From Chondrosia reniformis (lineage: Eukaryota; Porifera; Demospongiae; Chondrillida; Chondrillidae): a stretch of DNA of 64,000 nt. Each line of letters opens with the position of its first letter. Within the stretch, counting starts at the first letter, position 1. Made by a program: the position numbers and the translations under genes. The DNA lies in NCBI GenBank assembly GCA_947172415.1, contig OX359190.1, positions 310,001 through 374,000 of the forward strand. Reading direction: 5' to 3'. The notes beneath the pieces were generated by a model. The model was not told the DNA's origin, did not search any database, and was given only the letters and a program-made list of their open reading frames with translations. This document shows positions 611 through 57,545 of the stretch, one piece after another.

Positions 611-2800
611 TCAAAGTACTACTACTCTACTGCTATGCTGATCTGCTATGTAAATGAGTCCATCACTATCAACTGCTACACCACGAGGACCATTCAATCC
701 AATATCAGTCACTTCATGGACACACTGTCCATCTTGTGTGAAGATGCTGAGCTCATTATTAGCACTCCGTGAAGCTACCACTATATGTCCATCACTTGTG
801 ACTGCTATACCTTCTGGATCCTTCACAATGCCATTACCAAACTGCCTAATAAACTGACCATTCTGCTGAAACACTTGAATGCGATTATTATTACCATCTG
901 TGACATACACCAAATCATCAGGTGTTATGAGAATGTAATTTGGGTAATTAAACTCTCCTTCAGCTTCACCCTCGTGACCAAACCTGTACAGGAATGTACC
1001 TTCTTCTGTAAACACAGAAACACAATGACCTCCAAACTCTGCCACAAATATATGTCCCTCCTTGTTAACTGCCAAACCACATGGATTACTAAGTTGACCT
1101 TGATCTTCACCTTTTCCTCCAAACTGCCTTACAAATTCACCAGCTGCTGTGTAGATACTGATGTAGCCATTACTCCAATCACTAACTATCACATTCCCTG
1201 TTCTGCTTAGTGCTATTCCAAACAACCAACCACCATACTTGACTTTGAAGCTTCTTATAACTTGACCTTGTCTGTTTAGGATAGTCACTTGTCCATTATT
1301 ATCTGAACAGTATAGCAAACCATCCGGACCTACTGCAACACCCAAATACCGAGAACCTGATGGATGCTTGAACTCCTGCTTGACTGCAGTAATTCCACTA
1401 GTACCAACTATCTTCACCTCTACTGGACTGCCTGCTACATCATGTCCTCCAACAGTCACACTCAGATGGCACTTCTCTGATGGAACACTTACAAACTGCA
1501 CCTCATATGTGCCATCTCTCATGTCTGCTACTTTACCAAACACAGGAACACCTGCTGTCACAGGACGAAGGACAGCCAACACTTTCTCTCCTCCTCTGCA
1601 CTCATTGCTTCTCTCGTCTCTTGTCATCACCTTCAATTGCAAAGGAGGTTTCTTAGGAATTCTTGTTCCGCAGGTAATGACGTTATCCTTCACTTCCACT
1701 CCTTCCATAGTGCAGTTTGGTGGATGGGGACTGTGATGGATGCTTCCAAGTGATGAGATGTACTTTTCCACTTCTTCTCGATCACAGCTCTTCAGACCAA
1801 CAGAAGGTTGGATGGAGGCTCTTGGCATTGAGATACTGCTGCTGAGAGATGACATGCGACTAACAATCTTCTTTGTCGCTGATAACTGCTCTTCTGTTGT
1901 TCCATTCAAACTCATCTCTTCTGACAGGCAATGGAATGCATCAAGCTTCTTCAGACTGACCTTCAATTCTCTCTCACGTCTCTCAAGTTCTCTTCTTCCC
2001 TTGTCTTCTGCTTCCCTCACTTCACCAGCAAGACCATCACAGCGGGCTGTCACCATGGCAAACAGATGCTCCTTCATTCCAGCAATCTCTCCCAATGCAT
2101 TCTCAGACTGCTGTTGGAGACTAGCTTTGCTGTCCTGCACTTCTTGGAGAGCAGATCTGATTGCCTTCCTTTGAGTCCTCACGGATGAAAGGCACTGCGT
2201 CAGAGTGGTCTTGTTCGACTCTCCCAGCTTATCGTCAATGTACGACACTTCATGAGAATGGTGAGGTTCGATCGATCGACAAATGTGACAAATCATTTCT
2301 TCACAAGTGTGACAGTAAAGTTCGCAATTCTTTCTGTGTTTCGAGCATTTGAACAAATCCTCTTTCTTACCGCCTTGCTCAAACACTCCTTGCAACGGCT
2401 TTAATTCGTGTTTTTTAAGGAACTTGTGAGATTTGTGTTCATCGACGCATTCCTGGCAAATGAACGCATCGCAAGTCGAGCAGAAACTTACGGCCGATCT
2501 CTCTTCTTCGTGTTCCCCTTGACAGATGACGCCTTCCTTCCGGTACTGGTTGCTCAAAGCCTTCCTCAGAGCGAACGGATGGTCAGAAAGATCCTTGAGA
2601 GACAAGGAGAACACTTCCTCGCAAATCTTGCAGGAGATGCTGCGATGGAGAATCTTCTCTCGGCATTCTACCTTCTTGCACAAAGCTAACGAGTGGAGAC
2701 ACGGTAGACATTTCAACTCTTCTACTTTCTCTCCGCAACCGACACAAGAGAGACTAAGCTCGCTGGACTGAAGGAGTGGGACCGCTGGAAGCTCCGCCAT
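611..2800 (-). CDS. TRIM-NHL protein T1
   Basis: Single-exon, 729-residue tripartite-motif protein, a likely RING E3 ligase with an NHL recognition domain. Order: RING 19-60 (C19, C22, C34, H36, C41, C46, C57, C60; the spacing H-x4-C-x4-C is wider than the usual H-x2-C-x2-C, so E2 binding is uncertain), B-box 1 at 93-131, B-box 2 at 152-183 (C152, H155, C163, C166, C171, C174, H183), coiled coil about 190-315, filamin-type repeat about 360-465 and six NHL repeats 475-729. Start: the ATG at 2800 follows the sequence GTCTGCAA, which is shared by seven of the nine genes. Stop TGA at 613-611. Lack of introns beside intron-rich neighbours suggests retro-origin (inference). Loop residues include SDWSN (blade 2) and VKDPEG (blade 5). 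The N-terminal half matches T5 (DEHKSHKF, HSHEVSY) but the C-terminal half matches T8, so the gene is mosaic. TRIM-NHL relatives act in RNA binding, ubiquitylation or innate immunity; this target is unknown. Confidence 0.95.
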   Translation of the reverse strand: MAELPAVPLLQSSELSLSCVGCGEKVEELKCLPCLHSLALCKKVECREKILHRSISCKICEEVFSLSLKDLSDHPFALRKALSNQYRKEGVICQGEHEEERSAVSFCSTCDAFICQECVDEHKSHKFLKKHELKPLQGVFEQGGKKEDLFKCSKHRKNCELYCHTCEEMICHICRSIEPHHSHEVSYIDDKLGESNKTTLTQCLSSVRTQRKAIRSALQEVQDSKASLQQQSENALGEIAGMKEHLFAMVTARCDGLAGEVREAEDKGRRELERRERELKVSLKKLDAFHCLSEEMSLNGTTEEQLSATKKIVSRMSSLSSSISMPRASIQPSVGLKSCDREEVEKYISSLGSIHHSPHPPNCTMEGVEVKDNVITCGTRIPKKPPLQLKVMTRDERSNECRGGEKVLAVLRPVTAGVPVFGKVADMRDGTYEVQFVSVPSEKCHLSVTVGGHDVAGSPVEVKIVGTSGITAVKQEFKHPSGSRYLGVAVGPDGLLYCSDNNGQVTILNRQGQVIRSFKVKYGGWLFGIALSRTGNVIVSDWSNGYISIYTAAGEFVRQFGGKGEDQGQLSNPCGLAVNKEGHIFVAEFGGHCVSVFTEEGTFLYRFGHEGEAEGEFNYPNYILITPDDLVYVTDGNNNRIQVFQQNGQFIRQFGNGIVKDPEGIAVTSDGHIVVASRSANNELSIFTQDGQCVHEVTDIGLNGPRGVAVDSDGLIYIADQHSSRVVVL

Positions 2801-2960
2801 TTGCAGACCTCGCCTAGTTGCTGTATTCGGTAAATGTTTATTCTATCTGTCTGTTGTTTGTCTAATTTTAGTAATCAGTTCAGTTGTTACTATTTTGGTA
2901 CTTTATGGTTTATGTAACAATCTATAGATCGATTTTAATTAAGCTTTATTGTTTATGTAG
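2801..2960 (-). promoter_or_regulatory. Conserved TRIM 5' proximal block
   Basis: About 150 bases directly upstream of T1 recur almost unchanged upstream of all nine TRIM genes, including those with different distal flanks. On the minus strand it holds AT-rich sequence, a TACTAA/AATTAG pair that could be a branch point and 3' splice site of a 5'-UTR intron, and then the leader up to GTCTGCAAATGG. Its retention beside every copy suggests it carries the core promoter or leader. That role is inference; I see no clear TATA box. Confidence 0.4.
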
Positions 2961-4192
2961 ATCGATTTTAGTATTTGTCGCTTAAATCATTCTTAAAACT
3001 TGTAGGAAAGTTTTATTAGTTTTATTATATTAAAGTATAGTATTAGTAAATTGATAAGGAAGATTATGTATATTCATTTATGTACATTAATATCAAAATG
3101 GCAGTCGTCGGGTAAAGTTGTTTGCAAATGGAATGGTAATTTAATTATAGCGTTTCTTTTTAAGATTGAGGTTGTTTCATTTCCTTCTACTTGTCTTACA
3201 CTCGTAAATTTGTCTTTGTAACCTAAACGTTGATAAAGTCTGCATTATTACATTACAAGTGTTTCCTTTTGCACTTGTAGCAATCTTTTCAGAACGTTGA
3301 GGATATTTAATTGGAGGATTCTCAATAGTTTTTCTAGTTCACTTTGATGTCTGTTTGTTTGATGAAGTGATATGTTACAAATAGCTCTGGTTTGAGTGTG
3401 AGTTTTGACATTTTGGAATATGACAACTGATGTAACATTTTATTAAATTAATCTGTACGTACTGTAGACATTTCACAAGTACATTTGAATAATACTTTGT
3501 AGAAAATTGAGCACATGATATTTGGATTTCAAATTCTGTGTACATTGTATGTATGTAAGTTCTAAGAATACCTGCAAAAGTTAATTGTTCAAAAGCTGGA
3601 CTTTAATTAATCACAGCTGTTACTATGTAGTTTTAGGTGCTTGTGCTATGATATTATTTGTACTTATGAAATTATTGGGAAGGGCAATGTAGAATGTTCA
3701 TTCTATAGGATGCTATCATAAGTTGTTTATAGAAAAATACAAGTTTTTTAGAATTGTAGAGTGTGCAATTGTTTTATATATAAAGGGACTGTATCATACA
3801 GTATTAATTGGAGTGATTTGTATGGTTTAAAATTGGTTTGAACAAAGAATCTTTTAAATGTTTGTGGCAATTATTTGACATAAACAATAGCTCCATTTAG
3901 AGTTTGTTACAGGTCAAGTGTTTGGAACCAATTAGTAACTGATTAACACGTGATAAGGCTAACTGATTAACAGGTGACAGAAGTGTTGTGACTACTGAAA
4001 TTTAAGTTAATTTACTATATATCACTTTTATGGGAATCTATCTTCTGACAACCTGTAGATTTATTATAATTCTAACAACCATGTCTGGTATAGCAATGGC
4101 TAATTTGCCTTTTATACTTGACCACTCCCCCTCTTGTCTTTGACCACGCCCTCTTACCTGACCACTCCCCCTCTATTTATATTCCTGGACAG
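2961..4192. other. Intergenic duplicon spacer, T1 upstream
   Basis: AT-rich DNA without a convincing gene. The same sequence, with small indels, lies upstream of T5 (about 34660-35882) and T8 (about 52850-54049), so it belongs to the T1/T5/T8 type of duplicon. A short hairpin (ACAAGTG / CACTTGT) sits near 3257-3281. The end near 4120-4180 has TTGACCACTCCCC-type short repeats belonging to the PSMD6 intron. Confidence 0.7.
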
Positions 4193-4537
4193 AGACCTCT
4201 CCAGATTTGTGGCAATGGGACGTTTGAACTGCAGAATAGACAGAGTAGCTAGAGTAGTGGAAACTAACAGACCGGACCAGAAGAACTACCACTATCAGGT
4301 GAGCACTACTAACGTGAGGCAGACCCTCCAGTCCTCCATGTTTTGTTGAGGGGAAATGTCAAATCTAAGAAATCTAATAGTCTTAAAGTCTTTAAAGTCT
4401 TTATTTTTGTGGTTACTCCTTCCAGTATACTATATACATGTAACGTTTCCTTCTTCTTGTCCTCTTATTAGGCGACCATCAAGCAGGGAGACTTGTTACT
4501 GAACAGGTTACAGAAGTTGAGCAAGATCAACATTTAG
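4193..4537 (+). pseudogene. PSMD6: PSMD6 (Rpn7) last two exons, fragment 1
   Basis: Two exons encode the extreme C terminus of proteasome 19S lid subunit Rpn7/PSMD6. Exon 4193-4298 reads [18 protein letters not shown] then [15 protein letters not shown] and ends at a GTGAGC donor. Exon 4472-4537 reads ATIKQGDLLLNRLQKLS and stops at TAG. Human PSMD6 ends with very similar residues (ETNRPDSKNWQYQ, KKGDLLLNR). The acceptor CTGGACAG is intact. The last exon lacks one isoleucine codon (KINI rather than RIINI). No upstream PSMD6 exons are present; the T1 spacer precedes it, so this is a captured 3' end, not a whole gene. Confidence 0.88.
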
Positions 4538-4765
4538 CAGTTGTTTGACTCTTAAAACTTTGAACTGTCTCTGTGATAATCATGATTTTAGAGTTGTAAT
4601 GTTCAGTTGACAATTATATAATACATTTACATACTGAATACATATTTGCATTATGTGAAAAAATTGATTTTAATAAGTTAGTCTTGTGCAAGTTATAATG
4701 TGCTGGGACTAGTAGTACTGTTATTGAGTGTCATGTAAAGGGACACTCGTCAGCTGAGACACCAC

Positions 4766-4795
4766 TTGTATATTCTTGTATATTCTTGTATATTC
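4766..4795. repeat. (TTGTATATTC)3 minisatellite
   Basis: Three tandem 10-base units in the PEX12 intron before the linker exon. The same array occurs before each PEX12 fragment with 3 to 6 units. Confidence 0.9.
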
Positions 4796-4968
4796 AAGGG
4801 GAAATGAAAGTTATAATTGACTGCTTGAGGTCACATAAAAATTACTATATAAAGAATATTTCTCATCACTTTCTGGAGTGTGTTTAGCTGTACTTTAGAG
4901 AATGCTGAAATAACAGACTAGAAACTCCAACTGCTCTTTCTAGTTACTAGTAGAGCTCTCTACTTTAG

Positions 4969-5294
4969 GTGTCTCTCTGTGACCATGTTGGGTGCAGCCT
5001 ACGTGATGAGGTTCCTTGACTGGTGATGGCAGAGGAGGGACGCACCACACGACAGGCTGTGACTGCCTTACCAAACCCTCCCCCACACAGGGACACACAG
5101 GTAGGATTGTCTTAATGGATTGTCTTAATGGTTGCTAGGCAACCATCAAAAACTACTGATTCTTGTGTTTACAGGTCCAGAATCTTTTTCCTGCAAATTT
5201 GTGTCCTATGTGCCACAGTTGCCATAGCAACCCCACCACCCTCACTACATTAGGTTATGTCTATTACTACTCATTCATTCTTCCTTTTTATTAA
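4969..5294 (+). pseudogene. PEX12: PEX12 3'-end fragment, copy 2
   Basis: The linker exon 4969-5100 begins after CTACTTTAG with residues CLSVTMLGAAY. One G is lost in the DWWM codons, giving a TGA (GAC TGG TGA), so the exon is broken. The RING exon 5175-5294 keeps the first two zinc pairs, but the second half reads YVYYYSF where YVYCYSC is expected, losing two metal ligands, and it stops early at TAA. It converges on T2. The same damaged RING occurs at 55036-55155, which ties the two copies together. Confidence 0.82.
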
Positions 5295-5484
5295 TTTGTC
5301 CATTTTCAATTGAACTCTTTGAGGTTACCAAATAAGAAAAACACAATTATATAATTTGTAAATATCATCAATTGAACTTTAAATTGAAACTGAATAATCA
5401 TTGCACAATTACTCATTTAATAATAAATAAAATCTATAAATTTTAATAAAATGTTCAGTTAACAAACTTGTTCTCTAAAAGTTC

Positions 5485-7680
5485 TCAAAGTACTACTACT
5501 CTATTGTTATAACTATCTGCTATGTAAATGAGTCCATCACTATCAACTGCTACACCATAAGGACCATTCAATCCAATATCAGTCACTTCATGGACACACT
5601 GTCCATCTTGTGTGAAGATGCTGAGCTTATTAGCACTCCATGAAGCTACCACTATATGTCCATCACTTGTGACTGCTATACCTCGTGGATACTTCACAAT
5701 GCCATTACCAAACTGCCTAATAAACTGACCATTCTGCTGAAACACTTGAAGGCAATTATCTCCTCCATCTGTGACATACACCAAATCATCAGGTGTTATG
5801 AGAATGTAACCAGGGCAATTAAACTCTCCTTCAGCTTTACCCTTGTGACCAAACCTGTACTGGAATGTACCTTCTTCTGTAAACACAGAAACACAATGAC
5901 CTCCACACTCTGCCACAAATATATGTCCCTCCTTGTTAACTGCCAAACCAAATGGTCCACTAAGTTGACCCTGATCTTTACCTTTACCTTTACCTTTTCC
6001 TCCAAATTGCTTTACAAATTCACCAGCTGCTGTGTAGATACTGATGTAGCCATTACTATAGTCACTAACTATCACATTCCCTGTTCTGCTTAGTGCTATT
6101 CCAAACAATCTACGACCATTCTTGACTTTGAAGCTTCTTATAACTTGACCTTGTCTGTTTAGGATAGTCACTTGTCCATTGTTATCTGAACAGTATAGCA
6201 AACCATCCGGACCTACTGCAACACCCAAATACTGAGAACCTGATGGATGCTTGAACTCCTGCTTGACTGCAGTAATTACGCTACCACCAACTACCTTCAC
6301 CTCTACTGGACTGCCTGCTACATCATGTCCTCCAACAGTCACACTCAGATGGCACTTCTCTGATGGAACAAACTGCACCTCATATGTGCCATCTCTCATG
6401 TCTGCTACTTTACCAAACACAGGAACACCTGCTGTCACAGGACGAAGGACAGCCAACACTCTCTCTCCTCCTCTGCACTCATTGCCTCTCTCGTCTCTTG
6501 TCATCACCTTCAACTGCAAAGGAGGTTTCTTTATCCAAGGTCTCATTCTGCAGGTAATGACATTATCCTTCACTTCCACTCCTTCCATAGTGCAGTTTGG
6601 TGGATGGGGACCGTGATGGATGCTTCCAAGTGATGAGATGTACTTTTCCACTTCTTCTCGATCACAGCTCTTCAGACCAACAGAAGGTTGGATGGAGGCT
6701 CTTGGCATTGAGATACTGCTGCTGAGAGATGACATGCGACTGACAATCTTCTTTGTCACTGATAACTGCTCTTCTGTTGTTCCATTCAAACTCATCTCTT
6801 CGGACAGGCAATGGAATGCATCAAGCTTCTTCAGACTGACCTCCAATTCTCTCTCGCGTCTCTCAAGTTCTCTTCTTCCCTTGTCTTCTGCTTCCCTCAC
6901 TTTAGCAGCAAGACCATCACAGCGGGCTGTCACCATGGCAAACAGACGCTCCTTCATTCCAGCAATCTCTCCTAACGCATTCTCAGACTGCTGTTGGAGA
7001 CTAGCTTTGCTGTCCTGCACTTCTTGGAGAGCAGATCTGATTGCCTTCCTTTGAGTCCTCACGGATGAAAGGCACTGCGTCAGAGTGGTCTTGTTGGACT
7101 TTCCTAGCTTATCGTCAATGTACGACACTTTGTGGGAATGGTGAGGTTCGATAGAAGAGCAAATGTGACAAATCAATTCTTCACAAGTGTGACAGTAAAG
7201 CTTGCAATTTTCCTTGTGTTTCGAGCATTTGAACAAATTCTCTTTCTTACCGCCTTGCTCAAACACTCCTTGCAACGGCTTCATTACGTGTTTCTTCAAA
7301 ACTTTTCGAGTTTTATGGTGATCGACGCATTCCTGACAAATGAACGCATCGCAAGTCGAGCAGAAACTAACGGCCGATCTCTCTTCTTCGTGTTCCTCCT
7401 GACAGATGACGCCTTCCTTCCGGTACTGGTTGCTCAAAGCCTTCCTCAGAGCGAACGGATGGTCAGAAAGATCCTTGAGAGACAAGGAGAACACTTCCTC
7501 GCAAATTTGGCAGGAGACGCTGCGATGGAGAATCTTGTCTCGACATTCTACCTTCTCGCACAAAGCTAACGAGTGGAGACACGGTAGACATTTCAACTCT
7601 TCTACTTTCTCTCCGCAACCGACACAAGTGAGACTAAGCTCTAACTGAATGAGTGGGACCGCTGGATCAAGCTCCGCCAT
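5485..7680 (-). CDS. TRIM-NHL protein T2
   Basis: Intact 731-residue member of the family described at T1 (RING, two B-boxes, coiled coil, filamin, NHL). The N terminus is distinctive: MAELDPAVPLIQLELSLTC, shared only with T9. The filamin domain lacks two residues before the SEKC segment. The blade 2 to 3 connection is lengthened by a lysine-glycine run (GGKGKGKGKDQGQLS) encoded by a repeated TTTACC on the plus strand. Loop residues: KNGRRLFG, SDYSNG, SGPFG, AECGGH, DGGDNCL, VKYPRG, NGPYG, ADSYNN. T9 is its duplicate and shares every top-face loop; the differences are scattered, for example V or E in KKH(V/E)MK, K or E in LAA(K/E)V, and Y or H after SNG. Confidence 0.95.
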   Translation of the reverse strand: MAELDPAVPLIQLELSLTCVGCGEKVEELKCLPCLHSLALCEKVECRDKILHRSVSCQICEEVFSLSLKDLSDHPFALRKALSNQYRKEGVICQEEHEEERSAVSFCSTCDAFICQECVDHHKTRKVLKKHVMKPLQGVFEQGGKKENLFKCSKHKENCKLYCHTCEELICHICSSIEPHHSHKVSYIDDKLGKSNKTTLTQCLSSVRTQRKAIRSALQEVQDSKASLQQQSENALGEIAGMKERLFAMVTARCDGLAAKVREAEDKGRRELERRERELEVSLKKLDAFHCLSEEMSLNGTTEEQLSVTKKIVSRMSSLSSSISMPRASIQPSVGLKSCDREEVEKYISSLGSIHHGPHPPNCTMEGVEVKDNVITCRMRPWIKKPPLQLKVMTRDERGNECRGGERVLAVLRPVTAGVPVFGKVADMRDGTYEVQFVPSEKCHLSVTVGGHDVAGSPVEVKVVGGSVITAVKQEFKHPSGSQYLGVAVGPDGLLYCSDNNGQVTILNRQGQVIRSFKVKNGRRLFGIALSRTGNVIVSDYSNGYISIYTAAGEFVKQFGGKGKGKGKDQGQLSGPFGLAVNKEGHIFVAECGGHCVSVFTEEGTFQYRFGHKGKAEGEFNCPGYILITPDDLVYVTDGGDNCLQVFQQNGQFIRQFGNGIVKYPRGIAVTSDGHIVVASWSANKLSIFTQDGQCVHEVTDIGLNGPYGVAVDSDGLIYIADSYNNRVVVL

Positions 7681-7830
7681 TTGCAGACCTCGCTTAGTTG
7701 CTGTATTTGATAAATGTTTATTCTATCTGTCTGTAATTTTAGTAATCAGTTCAGTTGTTACTATTTTGGTACTTTATGGTTTATGTAGCAATCGATAGAT
7801 CGATTTTAGATTTATTGTTTATGTAGATCG

Positions 7831-7951
7831 TTTTTAGTATTTTGAATTATGTTTTTGAATTATCTATTCTATCAAATCTATTAGAACTTCTAGAAGAACT
7901 TTGTCTAATAGATTTAAGTTAGCACAAAAACATAATTCAAAATACTAAAAA
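7831..7951. mobile_element. Palindromic MITE-like hairpin element
   Basis: A 121-base foldback with perfect 27-base arms (left 7831-7857, right 7925-7951; arm core TAGTATTTTGAATTATG). An inner pair AAATCTATTAGA / TCTAATAGATTT surrounds a central CTTCTAGAAG palindrome, so nearly the whole element can form one hairpin. A second copy lies at 57695-57814. Half-copies with the same arm occur near 15080, 39829 and 46707. No coding capacity; non-autonomous element is the likely class. Confidence 0.65.
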
Positions 7952-8303
7952 GAAGTCATCATTGTCTATATCTCCGTAGGTCCAAACTAAGTTTAAATCT
8001 AGTTTTGCATCAGTTTCGTGTAGTTAACAGTTATATTGCAAACTCGAATGAGCAAGATCACACTCTAATGTAAATAGACCTATTTGAAGAATATATACAT
8101 TTTTATTTTTATGTATAGGTTTGCAATTAGTAACTGATTAACACCTTATAAGGCTAACCATACAGAAGTGACTACACAGCTTCTGACAACCATGTCTGGT
8201 ATAGCAATGGCTAATTTGCCTTTTATACTTGACCACTCCCCCTCTTTTCTTTGACCACGCCCTCTTACTTGACCACTCCCCCTCTATTTATATTCCTGGA
8301 CAG
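7952..8303. other. Intergenic spacer, T2 upstream
   Basis: AT-rich sequence ending in the TTGACCACTCCCC short repeats and the CTGGACAG acceptor of the PSMD6 exon. It is repeated upstream of T9. No gene seen. Confidence 0.6.
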
Positions 8304-11935: not shown

Positions 11936-12110
11936 CATTAAATTTCTATACAAGAATCTAATGTACATTTAGTGTAATAACTCTGTCAATTGGAAAGATG
12001 TGAAGCTGAAACTTCTTGTCAACATTCACAGACATACATAGAGCATATCCAAAGAGTTTTACAAATTTTGATGTTCACTCATATTTGTCCTACGTACGTA
12101 CTTTAAATTA
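11936..12110. repeat. Single subfamily A satellite unit
   Basis: One direct-orientation 169-bp unit directly after the core element, as also seen after the other two core copies. Confidence 0.8.
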
Positions 12111-12780: not shown

Positions 12781-12880
12781 ACGTATCTCACCATACATTA
12801 AATTTGTATACAAGAATCTAATCTACATTTAGTGCTGTAACTCTGTCAATTGTAAAGATATGAAGCTGAAACTTCTTGGC
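12781..12880. repeat. Partial direct satellite unit
   Basis: Part of a direct subfamily A unit joining the inverted block to the second core element. It ends in the same TATGAAGCTGAAAC junction that starts the other core copies. Confidence 0.75.
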
Positions 12881-18400: not shown

Positions 18401-18419
18401 GTGAGTTGTGCTTATTATA

Positions 18420-25590: not shown

Positions 25591-25594
25591 AACT

Positions 25595-37466: not shown

Positions 37467-39653
37467 TCAAAGTACTACTACTCTACTGTTATTACTATCT
37501 GTTATATAAATGAGTCCATCACTATCAACTGCTACACCACAAGGACCATTCAATCCAATATCAGTCACTTCATGGACACACTGTCCATCTTGTGTGAAGA
37601 TGCTGAACTTATTAGCACTCCATGAAGCTACCACTATATGTCCATCACTTGTAACTGCTATACCTTTTGGAACCTTCACAATGCCATTACCAAACTGCCT
37701 AATAAACTGACCATTCTGCTGAAACACTTGAATGCGATGATTATCACCATCTGTGACATACACCAAATCATCAGGTATTATAAGAATGTAATTTGGGTAA
37801 TTAAACTCTCCTTCAGCTTTACCCTTGTGACCAAACCTGTGCAGGAATGTACCTTCTTCTGTAAACACAGAAACACAATGACCCCAATACTCTGCCACAA
37901 ATATATGTCCCTCCTTGTTAACTGCCACACCAAAGAGATTACTAATTTGACCTTGACCTTTACCTTTTCCTCTAAACTGCCTTACAAATTCACCAGCTGC
38001 TGTGTCGATACTGATGTAGCCATTACTAATGTCACTAACTATCACATTCCCTGTTCTACTTAGTGCTATTCCACACAAACAACCACCATTCTTGACTTTG
38101 AAGCTTCTTATAACTTGACCTTGTCTGTTTAGGATAGTCACTTGTCCTCTGTTATCTGAACAGTATAGCAAACCATCCGGACCTACTGCAACACCCAAAT
38201 ACTGAGAACCTGATGGATGCTTGAACTCCTGCTTGACTTCAGTAATTCCGCTAGCACCAACTACCTTCATCTCTACTGGACTGCCTGCTACATCATGTCC
38301 TCCAACAGTCACACTCAGATGGCACTTCTCTGATGGAACACTTGCAAACTGCACCTCGTATGTGCCATCTCTCATGTCTGCTACTTTACCAAACACAGGA
38401 ACACCTGCTGTCACAGGACGAAGGACAGCCAACACTTTCTCTCCTCCTCTGCACTCATTGCCTCTCCCGTCCCTTGTCATCACCTTCAAGTGAAGAGGTT
38501 TCTTTATCCAAGGTCTCATTCTGCAGGTAATGACGTTATCCTTCACTTCCACTCCTTCCATAGTGCAGTTTGGTGGATGGGGACCGTGATGGATGCTTCC
38601 AAGTGATGAGATGTACTTTTCCACTTCTTCTCGATCACAGCTCTTCAGACCAACAGAAGGTTGGATGTAGGCTCTTGGCATTGAGATACTGCTGCTGAGA
38701 GATGACATGCGACTGACAATCTTCTTTGTCACTGATAACTGCTCTTCTGTTGTTCCATTCAAACTCATCTCTTCTGATAGGCAATGGAATGCATCAAGCT
38801 TCTTCAGACTGACCTTCAATTCTCTCTCGCGTCTCTCAAGTTCTCTTCTTCCCTTGTCTTCTGCTTCCCTCACTTCAGCAGCAAGACCATCACAGCGGAC
38901 TGTCACCATGGCAAACAGATGCTCCTTCATTCCAGCAATCTCTCCTAACGCATTCTCAGACTGCTGTTGGAGACTAGCTTTGCTGTCCTGCACTTCTTGG
39001 AGAGCAGATCTGATTGCCTTCCTTTGAGTCCTCACGGATGAAAGGCACTGCGTCAGAGTGGTCTTGTTCGACTCTCCCAGCTTATCGTCAATGTACGACA
39101 CTTTGTGGGAATGGTGAGGTTCGACAGTGGAACATACGAGACAAACCATTTCTTCACAAGTGTGACAGTAAAGTTCGCAATTCTTACTGTGTTTCAAGCA
39201 TTTAAAGAAATCCTCTTTCTTACCGCCTTGCTCAAACACTCCTTGCAACGGCTTCATTTCGTGTTTCTTCAAGACTTTTCGAGTTTTATGATGATCAACG
39301 CATTCTTGGCAAATGAACGCATCGCAAGTCGAGCAGAAACTTACGGCCGATCTCTCTTCTTCGTGTTCTTCCTGACAGATGACGCCTTCCTTCCGGTACT
39401 GGTTGCTCAAAGCCTTCCTCAGAGCGAACGGATGGTCAGAAAGATCCTTGAGAGACAAGGAGAACACTTCCTCGCAAATCTTGCAGGAGACGCTGCGATG
39501 GAGAATCTTCTCTCGACATTCTACCTTCTCGCACAAAGCTAACGAGTGGAGACACGGTAGACATTTCAACTCTTCCACTTTCTCTCCGCAACCGACACAA
39601 GAGAGACTAAGCTCGCTGGACTGAAGGGGTGGGACCGCTGGAAGCTCCGCCAT
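37467..39653 (-). CDS. TRIM-NHL protein T6
   Basis: Intact 728-residue member. B-box 2 differs from sisters around the ligands (FFKCLKHSKNC, MVCLVCSTVEPHH) while all ligands remain. Loops: SDNRG, KNGGCLCG, SDISNG followed by ISIDTAAG, FRGKGKGQGQISNLFG, AEYWGH, DGDNHR, VKVPKG, ASWSANKF, NGPCG, TDSNNS (threonine instead of the usual alanine in IAD). Several loops carry cysteine or tryptophan not seen in sisters. The upstream DNA is of the FBXO7 type, shared with T7. Confidence 0.95.
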   Translation of the reverse strand: MAELPAVPPLQSSELSLSCVGCGEKVEELKCLPCLHSLALCEKVECREKILHRSVSCKICEEVFSLSLKDLSDHPFALRKALSNQYRKEGVICQEEHEEERSAVSFCSTCDAFICQECVDHHKTRKVLKKHEMKPLQGVFEQGGKKEDFFKCLKHSKNCELYCHTCEEMVCLVCSTVEPHHSHKVSYIDDKLGESNKTTLTQCLSSVRTQRKAIRSALQEVQDSKASLQQQSENALGEIAGMKEHLFAMVTVRCDGLAAEVREAEDKGRRELERRERELKVSLKKLDAFHCLSEEMSLNGTTEEQLSVTKKIVSRMSSLSSSISMPRAYIQPSVGLKSCDREEVEKYISSLGSIHHGPHPPNCTMEGVEVKDNVITCRMRPWIKKPLHLKVMTRDGRGNECRGGEKVLAVLRPVTAGVPVFGKVADMRDGTYEVQFASVPSEKCHLSVTVGGHDVAGSPVEMKVVGASGITEVKQEFKHPSGSQYLGVAVGPDGLLYCSDNRGQVTILNRQGQVIRSFKVKNGGCLCGIALSRTGNVIVSDISNGYISIDTAAGEFVRQFRGKGKGQGQISNLFGVAVNKEGHIFVAEYWGHCVSVFTEEGTFLHRFGHKGKAEGEFNYPNYILIIPDDLVYVTDGDNHRIQVFQQNGQFIRQFGNGIVKVPKGIAVTSDGHIVVASWSANKFSIFTQDGQCVHEVTDIGLNGPCGVAVDSDGLIYITDSNNSRVVVL

Positions 39654-44355: not shown

Positions 44356-46545
44356 TCAAAGTACTACTACTCTAAAGTTATTACTATCTGCTATGTAAAT
44401 GAGTCCATCACTATCAACTGCTACACCAAGAGGAACATTCAATCCAATATCAGTCACTTCATGGACACACTGTCCATCTTGTGTGAAGATGCTCAGTTTA
44501 TTAGCACTCCATGAAGCGACCACTATATGTCCATCACTTGTGACTGCTATACCTAGTGGAATCGTCACAATGCCATTACCAAACTGCCTAATAAACTGAC
44601 CATTCTGCTGAAACACTTGAATGCGATTATTTCCTCCATCTGTGACATACACCAAATCATCAGGTGTTATGAGAATGTAACTTGGGCAATTAAACTCTCC
44701 TTCAGCTTTACCCTCGTGACCAAACCTGTACAGGAATGTACCTTCTTCTGTAAACACGGAAACACAATGAACCCCACATTCTGCCACAAATATATGTCCC
44801 TCCTTGTTAACTGCCACACCTAATGGATTACTAAGTTGACCTAGATCTTTACCTTTTCCTCTAAACTGCCTTACCAATTCACCAGCTGCTGTGTAGATAC
44901 TGATGTAGCCATTATCAATGTCACTAACTATCACATTCCCTGTTCTACTTAGTGCTATTCCAATCAATGAACCACCATTCTTGACTTTGAAGCTTCTTAT
45001 AACTTGACCTTGTCTGTTTAGGATAGTCACTTGTCCATTGTTATCTGAACAGTATAGCAAACCATCCGGACCTACTGCAACACCCAAATACCCAGAACCT
45101 GATGGATGCTTGAACTCCTGCTTGACTGCAGTAATTACGCTACCACCAACTACCTTCACCTCTACTGGACTGCCTGCTACATCATGTCCTCCAACAGTCA
45201 CACACAGATGGCACTTCTCTGATGGAACACTCGAAAACTGCACCTCATATGTGCCATCTCTCATGTCTGTTACTTTACCAAACAGAGGAACACCTGCTGT
45301 CACAGGACGAAGGACAGCCAACACTTTCTCTCCTCCTCTGTACTCATTGCCTCTCTCGTCTCTTGTCTTCACCTTCAATTGCAAAGGAGGTTTCCTTATC
45401 CAAGGTCTCATTCTGCAGGTAATGACGTTATCCTTCACTTCCACTCCTTCCATAGTGCAGTTTGGTGGATGGGGACTGTGATGGATGCTTCCAAGTGATG
45501 AGATGTACTTTTCCACTTCTTCTCGATCACAGCTCTTCAGACCAACAGAAGGTTGGATGGAGGCTCTTGGCATTGAGATACTGCTGCTGAGAGATGACAT
45601 GCGACTGACAATCTTCTTTGTCACTGATAACTGCTCTTCTGTTGTTCCATTCAAACTCATCTCTTCTGACAGGCATTGGAATGCATCAAGCTTCTTCAGA
45701 CTGACCTTCAATTCTCTCTCGCGTCTATCAAGTTCTCTTCTTCCCTTGTCTTCTGCTTCCCTCACTTCAGCAGCAAGACCATCGCAGCGGGCTGTCACCA
45801 TGGCAAATAGATGCTCCTTCATTTCAGCAATCTCTCCTAACGCATTCTCAGACTGCTGTTGGAGACTAGCTTTGCTGTCCTGCACTTCTTGGAGAGCAGA
45901 TCTGATTGCCTTCCTTTGAGTCCTCACGGATGAAAGGCACTGCGTCAGAGTGGTCTTGTTAGACTTTTCTAGCTTATCGTCAATGTACGACACTCTGTGG
46001 GAATGGTGAGGTTCGATCGATCGACAAATGTGACAAATCATTTCTTCACAAGTGTGACAGTAAAGTTCGCAATTCTTTCTGTGCTTCAAGCAATCGAACA
46101 AATCCTCTTTCTTACCGCCTTGCTCAAACACTCCTTGCAACGGCTTCATTTCGTGTTTCTTTAAGAATTTACGCGTTTTATGATGATCAACGCATTCCTG
46201 GCAAATGAACGCATCGCAAGTCGAGCAGAAACTTACGGCCGATCTCTCTTCTTCGTGTTCCTCCTGACAGATGACACCTTCCTTCCGGTACTGGTTGCTC
46301 AAAGCCTTCCTCAGAGCGAACGGATGATCAGAAAGATCTTTGAGAGACAAGGAGAACACTTCCTCGCAAATCTGGCAGGAGACGCTGCGATGGAGAATCT
46401 TCTCTCGACATTCTACCTTCTCGCACAAAGCTAACGAGTGGAGACACGGTAGACATTTCAACTCTTTTACTTTCTCTCCGCAACCGACACAAGAGAGACT
46501 AAGCTCGCTGGACTGAAGGGGTGGGACCGCTGGAAGCTCCGCCAT
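44356..46545 (-). CDS. TRIM-NHL protein T7
   Basis: Intact 729-residue member. Private changes: FDCLKHRKNC before B-box 2, KLEKSNK after it, NEYRGGEK and CHLCVTV in the filamin domain. Loops: SGYLG, SDNNG, KNGGSLIG (as T5), SDIDNG, FRGKGKDLGQLSNPLG, AECGVH (as T5), NCPSY, DGGNNR, VTIPLG, ASWSANK (as T6), NVPLG, ADSNNF. The patchwork of T5-like and T6-like loops in one gene argues for conversion between paralogs. Upstream DNA is the FBXO7 type. Confidence 0.95.
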   Translation of the reverse strand: MAELPAVPPLQSSELSLSCVGCGEKVKELKCLPCLHSLALCEKVECREKILHRSVSCQICEEVFSLSLKDLSDHPFALRKALSNQYRKEGVICQEEHEEERSAVSFCSTCDAFICQECVDHHKTRKFLKKHEMKPLQGVFEQGGKKEDLFDCLKHRKNCELYCHTCEEMICHICRSIEPHHSHRVSYIDDKLEKSNKTTLTQCLSSVRTQRKAIRSALQEVQDSKASLQQQSENALGEIAEMKEHLFAMVTARCDGLAAEVREAEDKGRRELDRRERELKVSLKKLDAFQCLSEEMSLNGTTEEQLSVTKKIVSRMSSLSSSISMPRASIQPSVGLKSCDREEVEKYISSLGSIHHSPHPPNCTMEGVEVKDNVITCRMRPWIRKPPLQLKVKTRDERGNEYRGGEKVLAVLRPVTAGVPLFGKVTDMRDGTYEVQFSSVPSEKCHLCVTVGGHDVAGSPVEVKVVGGSVITAVKQEFKHPSGSGYLGVAVGPDGLLYCSDNNGQVTILNRQGQVIRSFKVKNGGSLIGIALSRTGNVIVSDIDNGYISIYTAAGELVRQFRGKGKDLGQLSNPLGVAVNKEGHIFVAECGVHCVSVFTEEGTFLYRFGHEGKAEGEFNCPSYILITPDDLVYVTDGGNNRIQVFQQNGQFIRQFGNGIVTIPLGIAVTSDGHIVVASWSANKLSIFTQDGQCVHEVTDIGLNVPLGVAVDSDGLIYIADSNNFRVVVL

Positions 46546-50224: not shown

Positions 50225-50505
50225 TTACTATATAAATATCTATATTGACATGTGATATTAACTCTTTCTATGAAAGATGTTATTAAATTCATTGTCCTTT
50301 TTATTATTTTGTCCATTTTCAATTGAACAAAGTGACTGGCTTTTTGAGGGAAAGTTACCAAATTAGGAAAACACTTGTAATGTAATTTGTAAATAAAAAT
50401 ATGAATTGATAAATAAATTGAAACTCGTTGTACAACTAATCTAATAATTTCAATAAACTAATTAAATAATTGTTCACAGTTAACAAACTTGTTCTCTAAA
50501 CGTTC

Positions 50506-52695
50506 TCAAAGTACTACTACTCTACTGCTATGCTGATCTGCTATGTAAATGAGTCCATCACTATCAACTGCTACACCACGAGGACCATTCAATCCAATAT
50601 CAGTCACTTCATGGACACACTGTCCATCTTGTGTGAAGATGCTGAGCTCATTATTAGCACTCCGTGAAGCTACCACTATATGTCCATCACTTGTGACTGC
50701 TATACCTTCTGGATGCTTCACAATGCCATTACCAAACTGCCTAATAAACTGACCATTCTGCTGAAACACTTGAATGCGATTATTATCACCATCTGTGACA
50801 TACACCAAATCATCAGGTGTTATGAGAATGTAATTTGGGTAATTAAACTCTCCTTCAGCTTCACCCTCGTGACCAAACCTGTACAGGAATGTACCTTCTT
50901 CTGTAAACACAGAAACACAATGACCTCCAAACTCTGCCACAAATATATGTCCCTCCTTGTTAACTGCCAAACCACATGGATTACTAAGTTGACCTTGATC
51001 TTCACCTTTTCCTCCAAACTGCCTTACAAATTCACCAGCTGCTGTGTAGATACTGATGTAGCCATTAAAAAAGTCACTAACTATCACATTCCCTGTTCTG
51101 CTTAGTGCTATTCCAAACAACCAACCACCATACTTGACTTTGAAGCTTCTTATAACTTGACCTTGTCTGTTTAGGATAGTCACTTGTCCATTATTATCTG
51201 AACAGTATAGCAAACCATCCGGACCTACTGCAACACCCAAATACCGAGAACCTGATGGATGCTTGAACTCCTGCTTGACTGCAGTAATTCCACTAGTACC
51301 AACTATCTTCACCTCTACTGGACTGCCTGCTACATCATGTCCTCCAACAGTCACACTCAGATGGCACTTCTCTGATGGAACACTTACAAACTGCACCTCA
51401 TATGTGCCATCTCTCATGTCTGCTACTTTACCAAACACAGGAACACCTGCTGTCACAGGACGAAGGACAGCCAACACTTTCTCTCCTCCTCTGCACTCAT
51501 TGCTTCTCTCGTCTCTTGTCATCACCTTCAATTGCAAAGGAGGTTTCTTAGGAATTCTTGTTCCGCAGGTAATGACGTTATCCTTCACTTCCACTCCTTC
51601 CATAGTGCAGTTTGGTGGATGGGGACTGTGATGGATGCTTCCAAGTGATGAGATGTACTTTTCCACTTCTTCTCGATCACAGCTCTTCAGACCAACAGAA
51701 GGTTGGATGGAGGCTCTTGGCATTGAGATACTACTGCTGAGAGATGACATGCGACTGACAATCTTCTTTGTCACTGATAACTGCTCTTCTGTTGTTCCAT
51801 TCAAACTCATCTCTTCTGACAGGCAATGGAATGCATCAAGCTTCTTCAGACTGACCTTCAATTCTCTCTCACGTCTCTCAAGTTCTCTTCTTCCCTTGTC
51901 TTCTGCTTCCCTCACTTCACCAGCAAGACCATCACAGCGGGCTGTCACCATGGCAAACAGATGCTCCTTCATTCCAGCAATCTCTCCCAACGCATTCTCA
52001 GACTGCTGTTGGAGACTAGCTTTGCTGTCCTGCACTTCTTGGAGAGCAGATCTGATTGCCTTCCTTTGAGTCCTCACGGATGAAAGGCACTGCGTCAGAG
52101 TGGTCTTGTTCGACTTTCCCAGCTCATCGTCAATGTACGACACTTTGTGGGAACGATGTGGTTCGATAGAAGAGCAAATGTGACAAATCAATTCTTCACA
52201 AGTGTGACAGTAAAGTTTGCAATTCTCTTTGTGTTTGGAGCATTTGAACAAATCCTCTTTCTTACCGCCTTGCTCAAACACTCCTTGCAAGGGCTTCATT
52301 TCGTGTTTCTTTAAGAATTTACGCGTTTTATGAAGATCGACGCATTCCTGGCAAATGAACACATCGCAAGTCGAGCAGAAACTTACGGCCGATCTCTCTT
52401 CTTCGTGTTCCTCCTGACAGATGACGCCTTCCTTCCGGTACTGGTTGCTCAAAGCCTTCCTCAGAGCGAACGGATGGTCAGAAAGATCCTTGAGAGACAA
52501 GGAGAACACTTCCTCGCAAATCTGGCAGGAGACGCTGCGATGGAGAATCTTCTCTCGACATTCTACCTTCTCGCACAAAGCTAACGAGTGGAGACACGGT
52601 AGACATTTCAACTCTTCTACTTTCTCTCCGCAACCGACACAAGAGAGACTAAGCTCGCTGGACTGAAGGGGTGGGACCGCTGGAAGCTCCGCCAT
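50506..52695 (-). CDS. TRIM-NHL protein T8 (partner of T1)
   Basis: Intact 729-residue member. From the stop to 51732 it is the same as T1 base for base except at three places, giving SDFFNG for SDWSNG, DGDNNR for DGNNNR and VKHPEG for VKDPEG. The N-terminal half is different from T1 (DLHKTRKFLKKHEMK, HKENCKLYCHTCEELICHIC, IEPHRSHKV, DDELGKSNK) and resembles a mix of T2 and T4. All zinc ligands are present. The upstream spacer is the T1/T5 type. The contrast between halves shows recombination within the coiled-coil region. Confidence 0.95.
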   Translation of the reverse strand: MAELPAVPPLQSSELSLSCVGCGEKVEELKCLPCLHSLALCEKVECREKILHRSVSCQICEEVFSLSLKDLSDHPFALRKALSNQYRKEGVICQEEHEEERSAVSFCSTCDVFICQECVDLHKTRKFLKKHEMKPLQGVFEQGGKKEDLFKCSKHKENCKLYCHTCEELICHICSSIEPHRSHKVSYIDDELGKSNKTTLTQCLSSVRTQRKAIRSALQEVQDSKASLQQQSENALGEIAGMKEHLFAMVTARCDGLAGEVREAEDKGRRELERRERELKVSLKKLDAFHCLSEEMSLNGTTEEQLSVTKKIVSRMSSLSSSISMPRASIQPSVGLKSCDREEVEKYISSLGSIHHSPHPPNCTMEGVEVKDNVITCGTRIPKKPPLQLKVMTRDERSNECRGGEKVLAVLRPVTAGVPVFGKVADMRDGTYEVQFVSVPSEKCHLSVTVGGHDVAGSPVEVKIVGTSGITAVKQEFKHPSGSRYLGVAVGPDGLLYCSDNNGQVTILNRQGQVIRSFKVKYGGWLFGIALSRTGNVIVSDFFNGYISIYTAAGEFVRQFGGKGEDQGQLSNPCGLAVNKEGHIFVAEFGGHCVSVFTEEGTFLYRFGHEGEAEGEFNYPNYILITPDDLVYVTDGDNNRIQVFQQNGQFIRQFGNGIVKHPEGIAVTSDGHIVVASRSANNELSIFTQDGQCVHEVTDIGLNGPRGVAVDSDGLIYIADQHSSRVVVL

Positions 52696-54049: not shown

Positions 54050-54387
54050 AGACCTCTCCAGATTTGTGGCAATGGGACGTTTGAACTGCAGAATAGACAG
54101 AGTAGCGGAAACTAACAGACTGGACCAGAAGAACTACCACTATCAGGTGAGCACTACTAACGTGAGGCAGACCCTCCAGTCCTCCATGTTTTGTTGAGGG
54201 GAAATGTCAGATCTAAGAAATCTAATAGTCTAAAGTCTTTAAAGTCTTTATTTTTGTGGTTACTCCTTCCAGTGTACTATATACATGTAACGTTTCCTTC
54301 TTCTTGTCCTCTTATTAGGCGACCATCAAGCAGGGAGACTTGTTACTGAACAGGTTACAGAAGTTGAGCAAGATTATCAACATTTAG
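54050..54387 (+). pseudogene. PSMD6: PSMD6 last two exons, fragment 5
   Basis: Exon 54050-54146 has lost nine bases (GTAGCTGGAGTAGTGG became GTAGCGG), removing three residues in frame. Exon 54319-54387 is intact (ATIKQGDLLLNRLQKLSKI). No stop is present, but the upstream part of the gene is absent. Confidence 0.86.
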
Positions 54388-54615
54388 CAGTTGTTTGACT
54401 CTTAAAACTTTGAACTGTCTCTGTGATAATCATGATTTTAGAGTTGTAATGTTCAGTTGACAATTATATAATACATTTACATACTGAATACATATTTGCA
54501 TTATGTGAAAAAATTGATTTTAATAAGTTAGTCTTGTGCAAGTTATAATGTGCTGGGACTAGTAGTACTGTTATTGAGTGTCATGTAAAGGGACACTCGT
54601 CAGCTGAGACACCAC

Positions 54616-54655
54616 TTGTATATTCTTGTATATTCTTGTATATTCTTGTATATTC
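54616..54655. repeat. (TTGTATATTC)4 minisatellite
   Basis: Four 10-base units; the T2-side counterpart at 4766 has three. Confidence 0.9.
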
Positions 54656-54828
54656 AAGGGGAAATGAAAGTTATAATTGACTGCTTGAGGTCACATAAAA
54701 ATTACTAAATAAAGAATATTTCTCATCACTTTCTGGAGTGTGTTTAGCTGTACTTTAGAGAATGCTGAAATAACAGACTAGAAACTCCAACTGCTCTTTC
54801 TAGTTACTAGTAGAGCTCTCTACTTTAG

Positions 54829-55155
54829 GTGTCTCTCTGTGGCCATGTTGGGTGCAGCCTACGTGCTGAGGTTCCTTGGCTGGTGGATGGCAGAGGAGGG
54901 ACGCACCCCACGACAGGCTGTGACTGCCTTTCCAAACCCTCCCCCACCCAGGGACACACAGGTAGGATTGTCTTAATGGATTGTCTTAATGGTTGCTAGG
55001 CAACCATCTAAAACTACTGATTCTTGTGTTTACAGGTCCAGAATCTTTTTCCTGCAAATTTGTGTCCTATGTGCCACAGTTGCCATAGCAACCCCACCAC
55101 CCTCACTACATCAGGATATGTCTATTACTACTCATTCATTCTTCCTTTTTATTAA
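54829..55155 (+). pseudogene. PEX12: PEX12 3'-end fragment, copy 9
   Basis: Linker exon 54829-54961 is open (LRFLGWWMAEEG with D to G). RING exon 55036-55155 has the damaged YVYYYSF and early TAA also seen in copy 2. Converges on T9. Confidence 0.82.
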
Positions 55156-55349
55156 TTTGTCCATTTTCAATTGAACTCTTTGAGGTTACCAAATAAGAAA
55201 AACACAATTATATAATTTGTAAATATCATCAATTGAACTTTAAATTGAAACTGAATAATCATTGCACAATTACTCATTTAATAATAAATAAATTCTATAA
55301 ATTTTAATAAAATGTTCAGTTAACAAACTTAATTGTTCTCTAAAAGTTC

Positions 55350-57545
55350 TCAAAGTACTACTACTCTATTGTTATAACTATCTGCTATGTAAATGAGTCC
55401 ATCACTATCAACTGCTACACCATAAGGACCATTCAATCCAATATCAGTCACTTCATGGACACACTGTCCATCTTGTGTGAAGATGCTGAGCTTATTAGCA
55501 CTCCATGAAGCTACCACTATATGTCCATCACTTGTGACTGCTATACCTCGTGGATACTTCACAATGCCATTACCAAACTGCCTAATAAACTGACCATTCT
55601 GCTGAAACACTTGAAGGCAATTATCTCCTCCATCTGTGACATACACCAAATCATCAGGTGTTATGAGAATGTAACCAGGGCAATTAAACTCTCCTTCAGC
55701 TTTACCCTTGTGACCAAACCTGTACTGGAATGTACCTTCTTCTGTAAACACAGAAACACAATGACCTCCACACTCTGCCACAAATATATGTCCCTCCTTG
55801 TTAACTGCCAAACCAAATGGTCCACTAAGTTGACCCTGATCTTTACCTTTACCTTTACCTTTTCCTCCAAATTGCCTTACAAATTCACCAGCTGCTGTGT
55901 AGATACTGATGTGGCCATTACTATAGTCACTAACTATCACATTCCCTGTTCTACTTAGTGCTATTCCAAACAATCTACGACCATTCTTGACTTTGAAGCT
56001 TCTTATAACTTGACCTTGTCGGTTTAGGATAGTCACTTGTCCATTGTTATCTGAACAGTATAGCAAACCATCCGGACCTACTGCAACACCCAAATACTGA
56101 GAACCTGATGGATGCTTGAACTCCTGCTTGACTGCAGTAATTACGCTACCACCAACTACCTTTACCTCTATTGGACTGCCTGCTACATCATGTCCTCCAA
56201 CAGTCACACTCAGATGGCACTTCTCTGATGGAACAAACTGCACCTCATATGTGCCATCTCTCATGTCTGCTACTTTACCAAACACAGGAACACCTGCTGT
56301 CACAGGACGAAGGACAGCCAACACTCTCTCTCCTCCTCTGCACTCATTGCCTCTCTCGTCTCTTGTCATCACCTTCAACTGCAAAGGAGGTTTCTTTATC
56401 CAAGGTCTCATTCTGCAGGTAATGACGTTATCCTTCACTTCCACTCCTTGCATAGTGCAGTTTGGTGGATGGGGACCGTGATGGATGCTTCCAAGTGATG
56501 AGATGTACTTTTCCACTTCTTCTCGATCACAGCTCTTCAGACCAACAGAAGGTTGGATGGAGGCTCTTGGCGTTGAGATACTGCTGCTGAGAGATGACAT
56601 GCGACTGACAATCTTCTTTGTCACTGATAACTGCTCTTCTGTTGTTCCATTCAAACTCATCTCTTCGGACAGGCAATGGAATGCATCAAGCTTCTTCAGA
56701 CTGACCTCCAATTCTCTCTCGCGTCTCTCAAGTTCTCTTCTTCCCTTGTCTTCTGCTTCCCTCACTTCAGCAGCAAGACCATCACAGCGGGCTGTCACCA
56801 TGGCAAACAGATGCTCCTTCATTCCAGCAATCTCTCCTAACGCATTCTCAGACTGCTGTTGGAGACTAGCTTTGCTGTCCTGCACTTCTTGGAGAGCAGA
56901 TCTGATTGCCTTCCTTTGAGTCCTCACGGATGAAAGGCACTGCGTCAGAGTGGTCTTGTTGGACTCTCCCAGCTTATCGTCAATGTACGACACTTTGTGG
57001 GAATGGTGAGGTTCGATAGAAGAGCAAATGTGACAAATCAATTCTTCACAAGTGTGACAGTAAAGCTTGCAATTTTCCTTGTGTTTCGAGCATTTGAACA
57101 AATTCTCTTTCTTACCGCCTTGCTCAAACACTCCTTGCAACGGCTTCATTTCGTGTTTCTTCAAGACTTTTCGAGTTTTATGGTGATCGACGCATTCCTG
57201 ACAAATGAACGCATCGCAAGTCGAGCAGAAACTAACGGCCGATCTCTCTTCTTCGTGTTCCTCCTGACAGATGACGCCTTCCTTCCGGTACTGGTTGCTC
57301 AAAGCCTTCCTCAGAGCGAACGGATGGTCAGAAAGATCCTTGAGAGACAAGGAGAACACTTCCTCGCAAATTTGGCAGGAGACGCTGCGATGGAGAATCT
57401 TGTCTCGACATTCTACCTTCTCACACAAAGCTAACGAGTGGAGACACGGTAGACATTTCAACTCTTCTATTTTCTCTCCGCAACCGACACAAGTGAGACT
57501 AAGCTCTAACTGAATGAGTGGGACCGCTGGATCAAGCTCCGCCAT
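55350..57545 (-). CDS. TRIM-NHL protein T9 (partner of T2)
   Basis: Intact 731-residue member with the T2-type N terminus (MAELDPAVPLIQ) and the lengthened GGKGKGKGKDQGQLS connection. All six D-A loops and all B-C loops are as in T2, apart from Y to H right after SDYSNG. Remaining differences are scattered over the whole protein (KIEELK, HEMKP, SISTPRA, TMQGVE, SPIEVK). This pair therefore diverged by ordinary point change, unlike T1 and T8. Confidence 0.95.
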   Translation of the reverse strand: MAELDPAVPLIQLELSLTCVGCGEKIEELKCLPCLHSLALCEKVECRDKILHRSVSCQICEEVFSLSLKDLSDHPFALRKALSNQYRKEGVICQEEHEEERSAVSFCSTCDAFICQECVDHHKTRKVLKKHEMKPLQGVFEQGGKKENLFKCSKHKENCKLYCHTCEELICHICSSIEPHHSHKVSYIDDKLGESNKTTLTQCLSSVRTQRKAIRSALQEVQDSKASLQQQSENALGEIAGMKEHLFAMVTARCDGLAAEVREAEDKGRRELERRERELEVSLKKLDAFHCLSEEMSLNGTTEEQLSVTKKIVSRMSSLSSSISTPRASIQPSVGLKSCDREEVEKYISSLGSIHHGPHPPNCTMQGVEVKDNVITCRMRPWIKKPPLQLKVMTRDERGNECRGGERVLAVLRPVTAGVPVFGKVADMRDGTYEVQFVPSEKCHLSVTVGGHDVAGSPIEVKVVGGSVITAVKQEFKHPSGSQYLGVAVGPDGLLYCSDNNGQVTILNRQGQVIRSFKVKNGRRLFGIALSRTGNVIVSDYSNGHISIYTAAGEFVRQFGGKGKGKGKDQGQLSGPFGLAVNKEGHIFVAECGGHCVSVFTEEGTFQYRFGHKGKAEGEFNCPGYILITPDDLVYVTDGGDNCLQVFQQNGQFIRQFGNGIVKYPRGIAVTSDGHIVVASWSANKLSIFTQDGQCVHEVTDIGLNGPYGVAVDSDGLIYIADSYNNRVVVL

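Follow-up and report, generated by a model that had tools for sequence, protein, structure and literature searches.

Among TRIM genes, it is chiefly the vertebrate SPRY class that is known for expansions with fast-evolving recognition domains, and TRIMs with an NHL domain are more familiar as conserved regulators of development. Each propeller blade is a four-strand meander, which places the D-A and B-C loops together on one face and the A-B and C-D loops on the opposite one. Species-specific TRIM sets are tied to SPRY in a 2008 survey, which assigns the NHL/IGFLMN TRIMs to the conserved group 1 and describes an IGFLMN-related expansion in worm and fly (PMC2533329). Zebrafish LIN41 is reported to touch an RNA hairpin via 14 named residues (PMC5908797), Brat is described as binding RNA, and Mei-P26 and Thin as having a basic top patch. 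By analogy, the closest precedent for the family described here is provided by the WD40 propellers of Podospora HET-D/HET-E, for which four strongly selected codons per repeat, two of them around a conserved d-a loop residue and the other two in the b-c turn, are reported together with concerted evolution (PMC1805685).

The window analysed is a stretch of 64,000 nucleotides from chromosome 2 of the sponge Chondrosia reniformis (positions 310001-374000), in an assembly of 117,379,552 bases and 15 contigs; odChoReni1.1 is reported to total 117.37 Mb, in 14 chromosomes plus the mitochondrion (PMC12181767). The original prediction placed nine paralogous NHL proteins here, and their open reading frames do lie at 611..57545 of the window on the minus strand, with the ATG of T1 at 2800 and that of T9 at 57545. 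All nine are intact, single-exon and on the minus strand, and encode TRIM-NHL proteins of 715-731 residues counted from MAEL and numbered from the ATG: T1 (611..2800, 729 residues), T2 (5485..7680, 731), T3 (20072..22267, 731), T4 (27263..29410, 715, with a 9-residue gap near residue 364 and a 3-residue gap in the blade 3 B-C loop), T5 (32318..34501, 727), T6 (37467..39653, 728), T7 (44356..46545, 729), T8 (50506..52695, 729) and T9 (55350..57545, 731). Since the block with T1 and T2 (42..8158) is duplicated as T8 and T9 at 49937-58036 (96.8% over 8182 aligned columns), the nine genes amount to ~7 independent samples; pairwise identity is 96.7% for T1/T8 and 98.6% for T2/T9.

Upstream of the nine genes, good conservation is limited to the last ~120-170 bp before the ATG, and the ~600 bp past the stop are 78-99% alike per 50-column block, with gaps; promoters may differ from one member to another. 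Arrays of a ~169-bp satellite (9248-11203, 12098-12782, 13597-15004, 59176-61804 and 62693-63884) sit past the high-coordinate end of both the T1-T2 and the T8-T9 blocks. The window also holds an open reading frame fragment in three copies (16129-16386, 23412-23786 and 30342-30599), near 59-bp tandem repeats and Hus1-like by Pfam (middle copy tested), and a kinase fragment at 18014-18769, slightly below the Pfam cut-off. Pfam searches with eight other open reading frames of the window gave nothing beyond these two fragments, NCBIfam gave propeller matches below cut-off and nothing else, and neither Rfam matches nor tRNAs were found in the window.

In Pfam scans, T1 and T9 both have B-boxes (PF00643) in two stretches, with filamin (PF00630) and NHL (PF01436, 98-99 bits) domains above cut-off, in an order that matches TRIM-NHL (class VII TRIM) proteins. 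The closest solved relatives are the NHL domains of TRIM71, Thin, TRIM2, TRIM3 and Brat. In T1, a RING-like segment (residues ~13-62) precedes the B-boxes (~88-190), a coiled-coil region (~191-330) that rests on a sequence match to TRIM3 and TIF1-beta chains across the B-box/coiled-coil region, the filamin domain (~359-460) and the NHL propeller (475-729). Pfam RING models gave no match at E 0.001 in T1 or T9, the two proteins scanned, and the putative ligase activity therefore rests on a conserved Cys/His pattern, C-x2-C...C-x2-C-x-H-x4-C-x4-C...C-x2-C, whose spacing is unusual among TRIMs. Eight of its nine positions are invariant in 52/52 paralogs and the ninth in 51; for all 25 putative zinc-ligand positions, 22 are invariant in 52/52 and the remaining three in 51. 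By eye on the sequence, no secretion signal is evident in the family proteins, which are probably cytosolic E3 ubiquitin ligases. Two further features were observed outside the propeller. Synonymous diversity in the B-box region (residues 88-190, 52 paralogs) is 0.24-0.26 versus 0.06-0.09 in other segments, as though at least two ancient versions of the B-boxes had been kept and exchanged among genes, and at residues ~376-390 of T1-T9 a short cassette switches among a few forms (GTRIPKK, RMRPWIKK, RSFAKK and similar).

A genome search with T1 returned 61 rows, corresponding to at least 60 loci, with 34 on chromosome 2 at 180-458 kb and the others in small groups or as single copies, and yielded at least 52 intact full-length paralogs, each at least 82% identical, both counts being lower bounds as the search scored the best candidates. 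Eight of the 60 loci were left unused as interrupted, incomplete or below 82% (L018, L053 and L063-L068), L018 and L053 each being split into two frames, and L049 was retained despite differing in its final few residues. Linkage and site tests were run on 48 paralogs, with L059-L062 additionally excluded. A second array, ~55% identical to T1, lies on chromosome 9 at 7.16-7.30 Mb, with copies also on contigs C3, C7, C14, C1 and C8, and stops, which may fall on either side of the start codon, are reported for many of its rows. This C. reniformis chromosome 9 array served as replicate group B (21/22 cluster members used), together with groups C (14/18) and D (8/8); the best matches in this assembly of one C and one D member are at 44-45%, and both groups are presumably from another organism.

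In the alignment of T1-T9, the strings that the original prediction gave for three loops (B-C of blade 2, D-A of blades 5 and 6) all occur as written, and the A-B and C-D loops are, as it claimed, almost unchanged bar a few exceptions (RPDD and NKDG in T5, IPDD in T6). Its central proposal, that variable residues share one face of a constrained scaffold and recur at corresponding positions in each blade, is borne out in the 52 paralogs. Sites above 1.5 bits number 30 of 729, and 25 of these are in the NHL domain, every one in a D-A or B-C loop (25/96 versus 0/155 other classed NHL residues; Fisher p=4e-12, a value that is not blind since the loop boundaries, set by motif, and the lattice were drawn after the variable sites were known). 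A lattice of four positions in each of the six blades, 24 in total, covers 22 of these 25 sites: x1 and x2 flank the D-A loop Pro and x3 and x4 follow the B-C Asp, or in either case the equivalent residue. Off the lattice, the three remaining hypervariable sites (610, 618 and 639) are also within D-A/B-C loops. For T1, whose propeller is encoded by codons 475-729 (614..1378, minus strand), the lattice codons are 484, 486, 501, 502, 525, 527, 542, 543, 572, 574, 589, 590, 619, 621, 636, 637, 661, 663, 678, 679, 704, 706, 721 and 722. Mean pairwise identity among the 48 paralogs is 0.916 off the lattice and 0.291 on it, and 46 of the 48 have distinct faces.

Independent checks of the lattice came from the LIN41 contacts and from paralog groups B, C and D. 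Among the most variable NHL sites, the lattice accounts for 17/25 in B, 15/25 in C and 13/34 in D, and the top loops for 23, 24 and 25, respectively, group D being the weakest replicate. Chance can be dismissed, since a pattern seen in nine sequences recurs in 52 paralogs and three further groups. The lattice is rich in Trp, Tyr, Asn, Gly and Arg; relative to the whole protein, Trp is enriched 9-21-fold and Tyr 5-8-fold in all four groups (the T1 family being group A).

All 14 LIN41 contact residues could be located in the chain sequence: 13 of them coincide with x1-x4, and the remaining one, Cys563, is the residue preceding x1 (p=1.5e-14 for at least 13 on the lattice, with contacts placed anywhere among 255 positions). 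The lattice thus falls on the known ligand face of a solved relative. Burial of these residues would have refuted the original prediction, an objection that the LIN41 contacts answer in place of a structural model; by this comparison the lattice of T1-T9 would be exposed. The ligand that LIN41 holds with these same positions is an RNA hairpin, and this, like the RNA binding of Brat and the basic patches of Mei-P26 and Thin, would fit faces with distinct RNA targets, be they viral, transposon or endogenous mRNA, in a TRIM71/LIN41- and Brat-like repertoire for post-transcriptional silencing. Arg is indeed enriched at the lattice, ~2-fold in groups A and C, 2.8-fold in D and 1.2-fold in B, but Lys is depleted in all four groups, and net lattice charge is -3 to +4 in the 52 paralogs (none reaching +5), with means of 0.0, -0.2 and -1.1 in B, C and D, respectively, and a highest single value of +5, in C. 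The LIN41 face is strongly basic (+8) and conserved within TRIM71/LIN-41, whereas in the sponge the contact positions are hypervariable and a basic RNA-binding upper face of this type is not found, and we regard RNA targets as unlikely. Since the face is variable, aromatic-rich and near-neutral on a ligase-like scaffold, we infer many different protein targets instead.

The claim of an excess of nonsynonymous change in the D-A/B-C loops was tested by diversity ratios and site by site, and stood in both. The piN/piS ratio is 2.05 at the lattice (CI 1.42-3.26) and 1.64 over all top loops (1.24-2.22), compared with 1.07 for the other 72 top-loop residues, 0.48 (CI 0.28-0.88) for A-B/C-D loops, 0.45 for all non-top NHL residues and 0.43 for residues 1-474. 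By lattice position it is 1.95 for x1 (0.77-7.43), 4.09 for x2 (2.93-6.62), 1.73 for x3 (1.17-3.20) and 1.55 for x4 (1.02-3.29), such that, taken singly, the x1 interval dips below 1 and that of x4 is barely above it. Lattice piN reaches 0.438, whereas synonymous diversity is 0.061 for the propeller outside its top loops and 0.109 for residues 1-474. Loops are in general less constrained, and interrupted copies do occur (L018, L053), as relaxed constraint on exposed loops combined with birth-and-death evolution would have it, with no need for a recognition function. Relaxation cannot, however, raise piN 4-7 times over synonymous diversity (0.06-0.11), and on this ground we reject it as very improbable; moreover, the 72 other residues of the same loops stay at a ratio near 1, and variation is confined to ~4 positions per blade that are Trp/Tyr-rich in all four groups.

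The site test (self-written FUBAR-type code, kappa fixed at 2.5, FastTree trees, posterior >0.9, 48 paralogs) called 39 of 255 NHL sites with one tree: 20 of the 24 lattice positions, 15 more in top loops and four outside (487, 576, 587 and 632). The lattice sites missed were 525 (0.0), 590 (0.12), 636 (0.19) and 543 (0.89). With per-blade trees, 33 sites were called, 28 in top loops, including 15 of the 24 lattice positions and hence missing nine. Reassortment, which breaks the tree assumption of this test, was controlled for in part: in four null simulations with reassortment, 3-9 of 255 sites and 1-4 of 24 lattice sites were called, and the control segment (residues 13-474) gave 12 of 462.

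Evidence for such reassortment comes from linkage among biallelic sites in the 48 paralogs, where mean r2 falls from 0.32 below 10 bp to 0.17 at 10-30, 0.04 at 30-60 and 0.055 at 60-120 bp, then to 0.02-0.03 beyond 240 bp and 0.021-0.025 beyond 480 bp, with a background of 0.021. All four gametes are present in 4495 of 5565 site pairs, and distance matrices of segments (blades, domains) mostly correlate weakly (-0.10 to 0.32; 0.53 for coiled coil and blade 6). Codons are thus reassorted over tens of base pairs on a shared scaffold. None of the 4-residue words of blade 1 recurs in another blade, and exchange therefore appears to take place between genes at the same blade.

Over codons 322-729, T1 and T8 differ at lattice codons 542, 543, 637 and 661 and at silent codon 541, and nowhere else; many codons differ upstream of 322. 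Five of the changes are clustered in nine bases at codons 541-543, as might be expected if the variation were made by dedicated codon-targeted mutagenesis, whether adenine-templated and retroelement-like or deaminase-based. Third positions inside lattice codons are also raised ~3-fold (four-fold sites 0.149 vs 0.041; NNY 0.052 vs 0.018), indicating that selection may not be the whole story. Yet the T8 word at 541-543 is one base off GAC ATT TTT, found at two other paralogs, so that conversion plus one mutation is enough and a special mutation event at these codons can be discarded. Other top-loop codons are hardly raised (four-fold 0.050 vs 0.038; NNY 0.014 vs 0.021), and the lattice is unaltered in two recent pairs that have 17 (T2/T9) and 35 (L017/L045) nucleotide differences outside it, from which it follows that change of the face is episodic. 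Pure adenine templating is contradicted and was rejected because 12 of 61 variable lattice nucleotides are without A, whereas variation in a diversity-generating retroelement is confined to template adenines. We consider dedicated mutagenesis of any of these kinds extremely unlikely; the raised synonymous third positions perhaps stem from repeated multi-step changes, and the simplest account would be short-tract conversion among near-identical genes, hardly visible outside lattice codons, together with point mutation and selection.

Seven proteins from other public contigs (P0002, P0003, P0009, P0018, P0022, P0028 and P0030) are also family members, with a best identity of 89-93% to the 52 paralogs, and differ at 12-19 of the 22-24 lattice sites compared. 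In searches of the C. reniformis assembly, P0002 had no counterpart above 93% and P0022 none above 92%. Repertoires may hence differ between haplotypes or individuals, which would suit faces directed not at microbes but at transposon-encoded or polymorphic self proteins, in intragenomic conflict or an allorecognition-like recognition of self type; the closest propeller analogue, HET-D/HET-E, is itself reported to act in allorecognition (PMC1805685). A cytosolic protein would, however, presumably meet the proteins of another individual solely after cell fusion, and we hold conflict with transposons or self-type recognition to be improbable.

The sponge family resembles HET-D/HET-E/HNWD, as described, in having a beta-propeller with four selected positions per repeat, in a recombining family whose scaffold is homogenised while selection diversifies the face. 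As in HET-D/E, the selected positions fall in the d-a and b-c loops of each blade (35 of the 39 called, four lying outside), and members exchange sequence, judging from linkage decay, the four-gamete test and the weakly correlated segment distances. The propellers differ in being NHL in the sponge and WD40 in the fungus, on RING-like/B-box rather than NACHT/WD proteins. HET-D/HET-E repeats are described as near-identical within and between genes and exchanged as units, in contrast to the apparent same-blade exchange in the sponge, and the fungal genes are tied genetically to incompatibility. With TRIM71/LIN41, TRIM2/3, Brat, Mei-P26 and Thin the family shares domain order and NHL fold, and in LIN41 the ligand sits on the same face and positions (PMC5908797), but these relatives are few genes (five human NHL/IGFLMN TRIMs; PMC2533329), unlike the dozens of sponge paralogs with different faces. 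Vertebrate group-2 SPRY TRIMs (TRIM5-like) are similarly described as multiplying, with positive selection acting on their recognition domain; here, by contrast, the variable domain is NHL and the host a sponge. Among the matches listed in the open-access literature, there was no report of a hypervariable TRIM-NHL family or of a sponge TRIM-NHL expansion.

The lattice, its nonsynonymous excess, the match to LIN41 contacts, the conserved zinc ligands, the tandem arrays and the reassortment are all observed here. The genes are nearly identical and their proteins differ mainly at ~24 binding-face residues, as expected of a germline-encoded recognition repertoire. We therefore favour, as the likely reading, a germline TRIM-NHL family, probably of E3 ligases, whose variable top face is selected to bind different targets. 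Tandem duplication and short-tract gene conversion would keep the scaffold uniform and move lattice codons between genes, with diversifying selection maintaining different faces; each protein would bind its own target, probably a protein or peptide, and then ubiquitinate it. The selective force would come from targets within cells that are foreign, whether viral or microbial, or antagonistic in some other way. Families with immune or antagonistic targets typically show diversifying selection on the binding residues of arrayed genes, which makes such targets the best guess here, and intracellular non-self recognition is our best inference as to function.

On a ligase-like scaffold, the sponge thus appears to have adapted the NHL propeller into a recognition face that varies between paralogs. 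To the fuller proposal of an antibody-like, combinatorial ubiquitin-ligase repertoire in the sponge germline, with a 24-residue Trp/Tyr-rich face, short-tract exchange, differences between haplotypes or individuals, and intracellular non-self recognition, we give about an even chance; if true, a solution with four positions per blade, like that of HET-D/HET-E, would have arisen independently. What sponge cells may recognise with these dozens of faces, and whether such binding ends in ubiquitination, are now testable questions, and the lattice would offer a natural library of binders on one scaffold.
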